64,000 nucleotides of DNA. Source: an uncultured Sphingomonas sp. GTDB taxonomy: Bacteria > Pseudomonadota > Alphaproteobacteria > Sphingomonadales > Sphingomonadaceae. The stretch spans positions 53,407 to 117,406 of the forward strand of contig NZ_CALMPA010000013.1 in NCBI RefSeq assembly GCF_937871615.1, in the 5' to 3' direction. Under the pieces are notes generated by a model. The model saw nothing but the letters and a program-made list of their open reading frames with translations, did not search any database and had not been told where the DNA came from. This document shows positions 12,501-15,206 of this stretch, piece after piece (the stretch's first letter is position 1; every line of letters starts with the position of its first letter). The translations under genes and the position numbers were made by a program.

Positions 12501-15206
12501 TCACCCCTCCCGCGCCAGCGCCTTCAAGCGGTAGAGCGTCTCCAGTGCCTCGCGCGGGGTTAGGGCGTCCACGTCGAGCGCTTCCACCTCGCGGCGGATC
12601 GCGTCGCCTTTATCCGCCTCCACCGGCATCGCGGCGGCGAACAGGGGGAGATCGTCCAGCCCGGCCGCGAGCCCGCCCGTCTTCTGCCGCCCGGCCTCCA
12701 GCTTCGCCAGCACCGCCTTGGCGCGCGCCACCGTCGCCGGCGGCATCCCCGCGAGCCGCGCCACCGCCAGGCCGTAGCTGCGATCCGCCGGGCCTTCCGC
12801 CACCTCATGCAGCAGCACCAGTTCGCCCTTCCACTCGCGCGCGCGGACGTTGTGGAGGGTGAGCGCGTCGCAGCGTTCGGCCAGCCGCGTCAGTTCGTGG
12901 TAATGCGTCGCGAACAGGCAGCGGCAGCGATTGTCCTCGTGGATCGCCTCCACCACCGCCCAGGCGATGGCGAGGCCGTCATAGGTGGAGGTGCCGCGCC
13001 CCACCTCGTCGAGGATCACGAAGCTGTGTGGGGTGGCCTGGGCGAGGATCGCCGCCGTTTCCACCATCTCGACCATGAAGGTGGAGCGCCCGCGCGCGAG
13101 ATTGTCCGATGCGCCGACGCGGCTGAACAGGCGATCGACCAGCCCCAATGTCGCCTTGCTCGCGGGGACGTAAGCCCCTGCCTGTGCCAGCACCGCGATC
13201 AGCGCATTCTGGCGCAGGAAGGTGGATTTTCCGCCCATATTGGGGCCGGTGACGAGCCACAGCCGCGACGTTTCGGAGAGCGCGCAGTCATTCGCGACGA
13301 AGCGCTCGCCCGCCTTGGCCACCGCCGCCTCGACCACCGGATGCCGCCCGCCGGCCACCTTGAAACAGGGATGCTCGACCAGATGCGGGCGCGCCCATGC
13401 GCCCTCCGCCGCGCGCTCGGCATTGCCTGCCGCCACGTCGAGCCGGGCGAGCGCGTCTGCGGTGGCGGCGATCTCCTCGCGGCGGGCGAGCGCCTGCGCG
13501 ATAAGGTCTTCGAGATGCGCGGCCTCCGCAGCGAGCGCGTGCGCCCCGGCTTGCGTGACGCGCGCGGCGACCTCGTGCAGTTCGGGCGCGTTGAAGCGGA
13601 CGACCCCGGCCAGCGTCTGGCGATGGGTGAAGCCGGATTCGGGCTTCATCAGCGCATCGGCGGCGCGGGCGGGCACCTCGATATGATAGCCGAGCACGCC
13701 ATTGTGGCGGATCTTGAGCGTTTGCGTGCCGGTTTCGGCGCGGTATTTCGCCTCCAGCGCGGCGATCGCGCGGCGCCCGCCCGCGCCGGCATCGCGCAGA
13801 TCGTCGAGCGCGGCGTCATAGCCGGCGGCGATATAGCCACCGTCGGACGCCTCGATCGGCGGCGCGGCGACGATCGCGCGCTTCAACAGGTCGATCAGCG
13901 CGCCGTGCCCGCGTAGCTGCGGGGCGAGGGTGGCGAGGAGGCCGGGCGCATTCCCTCTCCCCGTTCGCCCTGAGCTTGTCGAAGGGCTGTCCTTTGCTTC
14001 CGAAGAAGGCAGTGCTTCGACAGGCTCAGCACGAACGGGAGGTGAGAGAGGCGGTGGGATGACCTTATCGAGCACTTCCCCCAGCAGCCACGCGCCATCG
14101 AGCCCGTCACGGAGTTGCCCCAGATCGCGCGGGCCGCCGCGCCCCGCAGCCAACCGCCCCAGCGCGCGGCCCACATCGGGCAGCGCCCGCAACGCAGCGC
14201 GGAGGCGCTCGCGCAGCACGCCATCGTCATGGAATAGCTGGACTAGATCGAGCCGCGCGTCGATCGCGTCCCTGTCCATCAGCGGCGCGCCGATATCGGC
14301 GGCGAGCAGCCGTGCGCCCGCGCCGGTTACGGTGCGGTCCACCGCGTCGAGCAGGCTCCCTTTGCGCGCGCCGCCGGTGGTTTGGGTGAGTTCAAGGCTG
14401 TCGCGCGTCGCCGCGTCGATCGCCATCGCCGCGCTCGCGCTCGAAACTCGCGGCGGGCGCAGGAAGGGGAGCGCGCCCTTCGCGGTGTGATCGAGATAGG
14501 CGATGAGGCCGCCCGCCGCCGCCAGCATCGCGCGACTGAATTGCCCGAAGCCGTCGAGCGTCGCGACGCCATAGAGCCGCTTCAGGCGCGCTTCGCCGGC
14601 GCCGCTCTCGAAATCGGCGCGCGGGCGCCACACGGTGGCGGGCGCCTCGCCGCCGTCCGCCGCGACCACTTCCGCTGCCGCCAGCCGCGCCAGTTCCGCG
14701 CCGAGCCCCTGGGGCGAGCAGGCTATCACCTCGAACCGCCCGGTCGAGATATCGGCCGCCGCGATCGCGATCTCGCCCGCCGCCTCGCCCACCGCGACGC
14801 ACCAATTGGCGGCGCGCGCATCGAGCAGCGCCTCCTCCGTCAGCGTGCCGGCGGTGACGACACGGACGATCGCGCGGTTGACCAACGCCTTCGATCCGCG
14901 CGCCTTGCGGGCGGCCTCTGGCGACTCGGTCTGTTCCGCGATCGCGACGCGGTGCCCCGCCTTGATGAGCCGCTGGAGATAGGCGGTCGCGGCATGGACC
15001 GGCACGCCGCACATCGGGATCGGTTGCCCGTGATGCTCGCCGCGCGCGGTGAGCGCGATATCGAGCACCGCGCTCGCCACCTTCGCATCATCGAAGAACA
15101 GCTCGAAGAAATCGCCCATGCGGTAAAACAGCAGGCAATCCGCCGACTCTTCCTTGAGTGCCAGATATTGCGCCATCATCGGCGTGGGGGCGGAGGGCGC
15201 GGTCAT
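12501..15206 (-). CDS. mutS: DNA mismatch repair protein MutS
   Basis: 901 residues, slightly long for MutS (about 850-880). The mismatch-reading motif is GDFFELF with F33-F34-E35 (canonical GDFYE). Next come the connector and core domains, then the ATPase with Walker A GPNMGGKST at about 650 and DEVGRGTSTYDG at about 730, and a C-terminal helical region. The start is ATG 15206; the open frame continues far upstream only because the antisense of maeB happens to be open. Oddity: a 78-bp inverted-repeat element (13961-14038) lies in frame in the core domain, adding about 26 residues (residues about 390-416) between two helices. The gene is probably functional, since the frame and all motifs are kept. 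Divergent from maeB. Confidence 0.96.
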   Translation of the reverse strand: MTAPSAPTPMMAQYLALKEESADCLLFYRMGDFFELFFDDAKVASAVLDIALTARGEHHGQPIPMCGVPVHAATAYLQRLIKAGHRVAIAEQTESPEAARKARGSKALVNRAIVRVVTAGTLTEEALLDARAANWCVAVGEAAGEIAIAAADISTGRFEVIACSPQGLGAELARLAAAEVVAADGGEAPATVWRPRADFESGAGEARLKRLYGVATLDGFGQFSRAMLAAAGGLIAYLDHTAKGALPFLRPPRVSSASAAMAIDAATRDSLELTQTTGGARKGSLLDAVDRTVTGAGARLLAADIGAPLMDRDAIDARLDLVQLFHDDGVLRERLRAALRALPDVGRALGRLAAGRGGPRDLGQLRDGLDGAWLLGEVLDKVIPPPLSPPVRAEPVEALPSSEAKDSPSTSSGRTGRGNAPGLLATLAPQLRGHGALIDLLKRAIVAAPPIEASDGGYIAAGYDAALDDLRDAGAGGRRAIAALEAKYRAETGTQTLKIRHNGVLGYHIEVPARAADALMKPESGFTHRQTLAGVVRFNAPELHEVAARVTQAGAHALAAEAAHLEDLIAQALARREEIAATADALARLDVAAGNAERAAEGAWARPHLVEHPCFKVAGGRHPVVEAAVAKAGERFVANDCALSETSRLWLVTGPNMGGKSTFLRQNALIAVLAQAGAYVPASKATLGLVDRLFSRVGASDNLARGRSTFMVEMVETAAILAQATPHSFVILDEVGRGTSTYDGLAIAWAVVEAIHEDNRCRCLFATHYHELTRLAERCDALTLHNVRAREWKGELVLLHEVAEGPADRSYGLAVARLAGMPPATVARAKAVLAKLEAGRQKTGGLAAGLDDLPLFAAAMPVEADKGDAIRREVEALDVDALTPREALETLYRLKALAREG
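13961..14038. repeat. palindromic repeat element inside mutS coding sequence
   Basis: Arm 1 is 13961-13989 (begins CCGTTCGCCCTGAGCTTGTC) and arm 2 is 14010-14038 (ends CAGCACGAACGG). They are inverted repeats matching at 24 of 29 positions, with a 20-base spacer. The total of 78 bases is exactly 26 codons, so MutS stays in frame. The sequence style (CTGAGCTTGTCGAAGG / CTTCGACAGGCTCAG) is a dispersed repeat I recognise from sphingomonad and other proteobacterial genomes, usually intergenic. Confidence 0.85.

Follow-up and report, generated by a model that had tools for sequence, protein, structure and literature searches.

An extra segment in the MutS protein of an uncultured Sphingomonas very probably stems from capture of one copy of a REP dimer that is dispersed and non-autonomous; across the genus, such elements appear to have entered this loop of MutS domain III in at least four independent insertions. 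The host gene, mutS for the DNA mismatch repair protein (901 codons plus stop; positions 12501..15206, minus strand), lies in the window, i.e. the whole stretch of 64,000 nucleotides analysed here, and was identified by the Pfam domains MutS_I to MutS_V and by MutS chains of solved structures. As first described from the letters of the DNA, a 78-bp palindrome occupies positions 13961..14038, with arms matched at 24 of 29 bases, and its placement inside the MutS core domain holds, since it falls within Pfam MutS_III (domain III, residues 266–595; 13422..14411, minus strand). The earlier note had also taken the insertion to be in frame and exactly 26 codons long. The frame is indeed kept in the 901-aa MutS, but alignments place the net extra segment, with approximate borders, at about residues 386–420 (35 codons; 13947..14051, minus strand; peptide ...SPPVRAEPVEALPSSEAKDSPSTSSGRTG...). 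With 70 aa here vs. 35 in 104 of 132 MutS proteins of the genus, the loop is 35 residues longer than in relatives, so that the palindrome together with ~27 nt of flank, and not 26 codons alone, keeps the frame.

The architecture is that of a REP dimer (the REPIN build), with two inverted hairpin repeats around a short spacer. Arm 1 is of type GCC...GGC (GCCCTGAGCTTGTCGAAGGGC; 13967..13987) and arm 2 of type GTG...CAC, inverted (14012..14032); the inter-core stretch (spacer plus inner arm bases; 13985..14014) belongs to a subfamily of the source genome and of G140, a genome of the same clade. Neither the palindrome nor any of these parts is assigned a strand. Each arm consists of CCGTTC plus a small hairpin, GNNCT-GAGCYTGTCGA-AGNNC, with a 5-bp stem and an 11-nt loop. 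All through similarity searches, we collected 85 copies (25 of the source genome, 30 loci from G133, G147, G267 and G148, plus another 30 from G140), in whose 170 arms two of the five stem pairs covary: the two variable pairs were standard in 160/170 and 162/170 arms, compared to shuffled means of 83 and 81. Arm 2 was delimited by the dimer copies and by covariation as well. CC was paired with GG in 44 dimers and with TG in 26, that is, with one or the other in 70 of the 85. Full copies begin with CCGTTCG and end with CGAACGG, with few exceptions; these ends, conserved in the 25 copies of the source genome and in 30 others, are borders beyond which conservation drops sharply. Folding compared to 200 shuffles gave z-scores of –6.05 (minus strand) and –7.05 (plus strand). 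Within the window, the core CTTCGACARGCTCAG (at most one mismatch) was found at the two arms only, with 0 occurrences expected, and the element is absent from the window's repeat listing; its arms share no exact 9-mer, the seed length of that listing. What marks a REPIN-like dimer—inverted small hairpin repeats, a short spacer, scatter throughout the genome and a single-arm hairpin backed by compensatory changes—was found here. In the flanks of 55 copies, the 8 bases outside either end are ~75 percent pyrimidine reading inwards, reflecting either a target preference or degenerate element ends.

A lack of further copies had been named as grounds for abandoning the idea of a dispersed element. 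The genome search proposed at the time resolved 25 full dimers in the source genome (3.99 Mb, 71 contigs) and displayed three partial places, from 43 BLAST rows of which many represent one copy on both strands. The exact core was present in 76 of 101 genomes of the genus, and at the family level in 127 of 199 genomes and 74 of 96 genera. A codon score, with in-sample pass rates of 99% for true and 7% for false MutS windows, placed 4 of the 85 copies inside coding sequence. Two of these are the MutS query copies, leaving 2 of 83, in line with the earlier view that the repeat is normally intergenic; this intragenic rate is too uncertain for a hotspot probability. Five copies of G148 (L195, L199, L203, L207 and L211) have an inter-core distance of 19–20 nt, vs. 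~29–41 nt in copies of other genomes, and constitute a short-spacer subfamily.

The segment is far from general among sphingomonad MutS proteins, the finding that would have spoken for an ordinary part of the protein: the alignment of relatives suggested in the earlier note revealed it to be missing in 43 loci (39 genomes), near relatives included. Among 132 MutS proteins of the genus, a set that deliberately includes carriers, loop lengths were 35 (104 proteins), 32–34 (16), 39–41 (6), 46 (one) and 62–73 residues (five), and 126 loops were devoid of the element. When the MutS stretch around the insert was compared to 295 genomes of the genus, 287 matched and five aligned straight through it, namely the source genome, G133, G147, G148 and G267, and in each of them this loop contains an element in frame. 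The mutS of G158 contains a shortened (half) element in this loop, and that of its near relative G159 none; half elements were detectable only in fetched mutS genes, with 155 of the matched genomes outside that set. A search of the family, in which 383 of 397 genomes matched (some of them members of the genus) and inserts encoding a different peptide could be missed, returned no further straight-through match among the matches listed. In other genomes, 80 named loci were inspected as well, and their mutS showed no element pair. In the mutS of G148 (L184), a different palindrome, CCCCGGATCAAGTCCGGGG, interrupts the second arm of the element with the frame still open, in what looks like a nested insertion. 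Inspection by eye of relatives' empty sites revealed nothing clear by way of a target-site duplication.

On a tree of the 132 MutS proteins computed without the loop, the carriers require six changes. A quick tree of 35 of these proteins, again without the loop, likewise required six, at least five of which are forced by well-supported branches. The source genome, G147, G158 and G148 were placed among non-carriers on supported branches, while G133, G267 and the non-carrier G001 formed an unresolved fork. As the elements of G133 and G267 have a common right flank, these two may descend from one shared insertion, and likewise G147 and G158 may; given this possible sharing, the gains are counted as at least four, with the number of events resting on parsimony. 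From these sequence comparisons, we infer at least four separate captures of resident repeats in the MutS loop.

Spacer sequences bear on the origin of the captured copies. That of the MutS element in the source genome had a mean score of 0.58 against 24 copies from the source genome itself and 0.62 against 30 of G140, vs. 0.21–0.34 against the other tested copies and 0.26–0.32 against the other MutS copies. This resemblance to the dispersed copies of its own clade suggests that the source genome's insert was captured from among its resident repeats, bearing in mind that the copies compared were chosen by similarity search, which biases towards like with like, and that they include L215 and L219, both without a confirmed genome. 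The comparison fails to separate G133, G147 and G267 from one another, and the MutS spacer of G148 is unlike that genome's own short-spacer copies, which counts against resident capture there.

The foremost alternative, a single ancient insertion in the ancestor of the genus, lost in nearly all species while the element drifted in the survivors, is improbable. It would explain why all five full carriers share loop and frame and why the GTG-type arm comes first in four of them, and the half element in G158 next to none in G159 suggests that reduction or loss can happen. However, with five of 287 matched genomes aligning through the insert and empty sites as widespread as the 126 loops without the element, many separate clean losses would be needed; four of the six carriers sit among non-carriers on supported branches, and the spacer of the source genome fits the dispersed copies of its clade rather than the other MutS copies.

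On the preferred reading of repeated capture, a resident REP dimer inserted into a C-rich mutS stretch encoding a domain III loop. Most genic insertions would be purged, and the MutS loop would tolerate an extra 25–35 residues provided that VRxEPVE is the reading frame of the 5′ arm; it is presumably by this combination of purging elsewhere and tolerance in the loop that the MutS inserts survive. Structure prediction is consistent with such tolerance. An AlphaFold model of MutS built with 46 sequences had a mean pLDDT of 86, with residues 392–418 below 50 and flanked by confident helices (359–380 and 422–431); modelling MutS with no alignment reached a pLDDT of only 39 and was of no use. Aligned residues 373 and 400 bracket the corresponding stretch in the best solved MutS chain. 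The insert is accordingly predicted to form a disordered loop between two helices. dN/dS amounted to 0.04–0.11 in nine pairs that include a carrier and to 0.08–0.11 in five pairs that do not. Such low values indicate that MutS has not decayed and speak against a loss of its function; a subtle change in activity is possible, and the effect on mismatch repair is most likely near neutral. The MutS loop seems to mark a spot where mobile repeats can become protein without breaking MutS.

Use of the element as protein follows a frame preference. On each strand, two frames are about equally open: FxLSLSK in 155 and VRxEPVE in 160 of the 170 readings that the 85 copies provide. Yet all coding copies seen—the five full MutS carriers, L344 of G140 and all 17 of the 17 E2 genes (see below) with a detected core—use the VRxEPVE frame for the 5′ arm, as IRAEPVE in one E2 gene. 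Several E2 genes read their two arms in different frames. As one frame is used though two are about equally open, we take this as a sign of selection favoring a hydrophilic, disorder-prone peptide.

Besides mutS, one gene was found to accommodate a copy among the 25 of the source genome: it encodes a 2-oxoacid dehydrogenase E2 (L039), and the copy lies in the linker that joins the lipoyl and E3-binding domains. An E2 search matched 290 of 295 genomes. The element or half of it was present in 8 of the 12 best-matching E2 loci (the source genome's included), as ranked by similarity to the insert-holding query, and in 9 of 40 further loci hand-picked from the higher-scoring listed part of the ranking. 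The E2 linker thus carries the MutS-element family in 17 of 52 sampled genes. More generally, an inverted repeat beyond all 60 block shuffles was detected in 32 of the 52 linkers, compared to 0 of 52 controls taken from elsewhere in these genes, and linkers without the MutS-element family harbored other palindromes in 21 of 35 cases. By eye, the linkers (L308–L319, L350–L389) fall into about six peptide types, at least five of them besides the MutS-element family. Their palindromes matched other fetched loci to varying degrees: type c at one locus, type d and one member of type f at 2–4, and type e and the other f members at 15–22; type b was without a match in the small set of fetched loci. 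Palindromes in E2 linkers are the broader phenomenon behind the MutS case. Whether the loop in domain III of MutS and, even more so, the E2 linker are recurring landing pads for several unrelated mobile palindrome families, with repeats supplying much of the linker sequence and selection keeping the hydrophilic frame, is to our mind an even call. If so, free-living bacteria would have in mobile palindromes a constant supply of disordered protein sequence.

These linkers also weigh on the idea that the insertion is adaptive and tunes MutS and, with it, the mutation rate, as the text of PMC3733652 speculated in proposing mutators arising from REPs in repair genes. Capture occurred repeatedly in the same repair gene, and PMC3733652 stresses intragenic REPs in repair genes, yet dN/dS is low in carriers as in non-carriers, the segment resides in a part of domain III predicted to be disordered, and the same family is more frequent in the linker of a metabolic enzyme. 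We therefore regard adaptive tuning as quite improbable: that the E2 linker is hit more often points to tolerance, not repair, as the cause. The altered mutation rate raised as a possibility in the earlier note is so far unsupported. The two cases together help to separate targeting of repair genes from hits in any tolerant loop, and the E2 data favor the latter. Spread of an insert-bearing mutS allele between species would fit the scatter of carriers on the tree but is extremely improbable, as MutS outside the loop groups the source genome, G147/G158 and G148 with non-carrier neighbors, and the spacer subfamily of the source genome differs from those of G133, G147 and G267.

For the repeatedly captured REP dimer, transposition in trans through some enzyme would be the mode of movement, with no candidate found. 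The source genome, rated 100% complete in its 71 contigs, contained no match to Y1_Tnp (PF01797) or REP_Tyr_transpos (NF047646). Among 101 genomes of the genus, 11 contained Y1_Tnp, whose presence showed no significant link with copy number (Mann–Whitney p 0.16), including 3 of the 12 genomes with at least 80 core matches, and the repeat core occurred in 0 of 19 Y1_Tnp loci of relatives. A RAYT was thus rejected as the mobilizer, having been found neither in the source genome nor linked in relatives, and the pairing of RAYT and REP copies within a genome that typifies REPINs was not observed here. The main text of PMC3733652 lists no transposase for CGTC repeats either. With regard to MITEs, the ends of the element are inverted repeats, the empty sites lack a clear duplication and no parent IS was identified.

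Intragenic REPs, including ones in repair genes, are already in print. The main text of PMC3733652 reports many of them in replication and repair genes, suggests flexible linkers and loops as tolerant sites, and describes intragenic REP dimers coding for 20–30 residues; S. wittichii and other alphaproteobacteria are among the species covered. It states heterodimers to be predominant in some CGTC families and gives a single instance of two species hit at the same site, recB in Xanthomonas; mutS is mentioned 0 times in this main text (the gene list, Additional file 3, is outside the scope of the count). As described there, GTAG and CGTC REPs share with the MutS element head-to-head palindromic dimers that are mostly intergenic, some intragenic, and the CGTC repeats share with it the absence of a linked transposase. 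CGTC REPs, however, have an unpaired CGTC (or TGTC, CCTC) tag, an 8–9 bp stem, a 4–5 nt loop and a 3-nt tail, whereas the arms of the MutS element start with CCGTTCG, fold into a 5-bp stem around the 11-nt loop GAGCYTGTCGA, and possess no unpaired CGTC or GTAG tag. It thus agrees with the CGTC super-family in its dimers, intragenic copies and absence of a transposase and departs from it in tag and stem, as judged by the text description in PMC3733652 and not by its consensus figure. REPINs, defined in PMC3116915 as two inverted REPs around a short spacer that move as a unit, with single REPs as remnants, have the same dimer build; those accompanied by a RAYT differ in this respect from the source genome, in which none was found.

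The Rickettsia palindromic elements, ~150 bp long and nearly half of them in ORFs according to a review (PMC10969869), are likewise in-frame palindromes that add new protein segments to unrelated genes. The likeness to them put forward in the earlier note applies to the mode of action, an in-frame insertion within an ORF whose host protein is apparently functional (constraint, not function, having been measured), but not to the build, which is that of a REP dimer of ~80 bp found mostly outside genes (2/83 copies coding, MutS queries excluded). The best-known examples of in-frame palindromes come from Rickettsia and, in the form of REPs, from scattered genes. The literature search, which covered titles and abstract openings but not Additional file 3 of PMC3733652, returned no report on MutS with intragenic palindromes and none describing repeated captures, either in MutS or in the E2 linker; searching with the letters of the repeat gave single chance-like matches only. 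The present analysis adds a repeat whose arm is unlike the CGTC tag and stem in print, its repeated capture at one loop of MutS, a rule for the frame, signs that constraint continues, and the E2 linker. Recurrent capture in one loop of a universal, well-studied protein, together with empty sites in near relatives, makes it testable whether such a repeat is a neutral passenger or changes its host protein.

As to other genic copies, a Pfam scan covered 20 of the 35 listed ORFs spanning copies, along with mutS. Pfam domains on both sides of the copy were found for the E2 in L039 only, and on one side for DinB (L054) and AcrB (L203); 15 scanned ORFs were without a Pfam family and may not be genes. 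In L218 (G267, contig C2), ORFs on opposite strands each have domains on one side of the copy, which is therefore probably situated between divergent genes. In L344 (G140, contig C12), the copy lies within a long coding-like ORF without a Pfam match and is read in the VRAEPVEA frame. The copy in L054 (source genome, contig C39) is located slightly upstream of where the Pfam domains begin in a dinB-like gene (Y-family polymerase), the expression of which it could affect.
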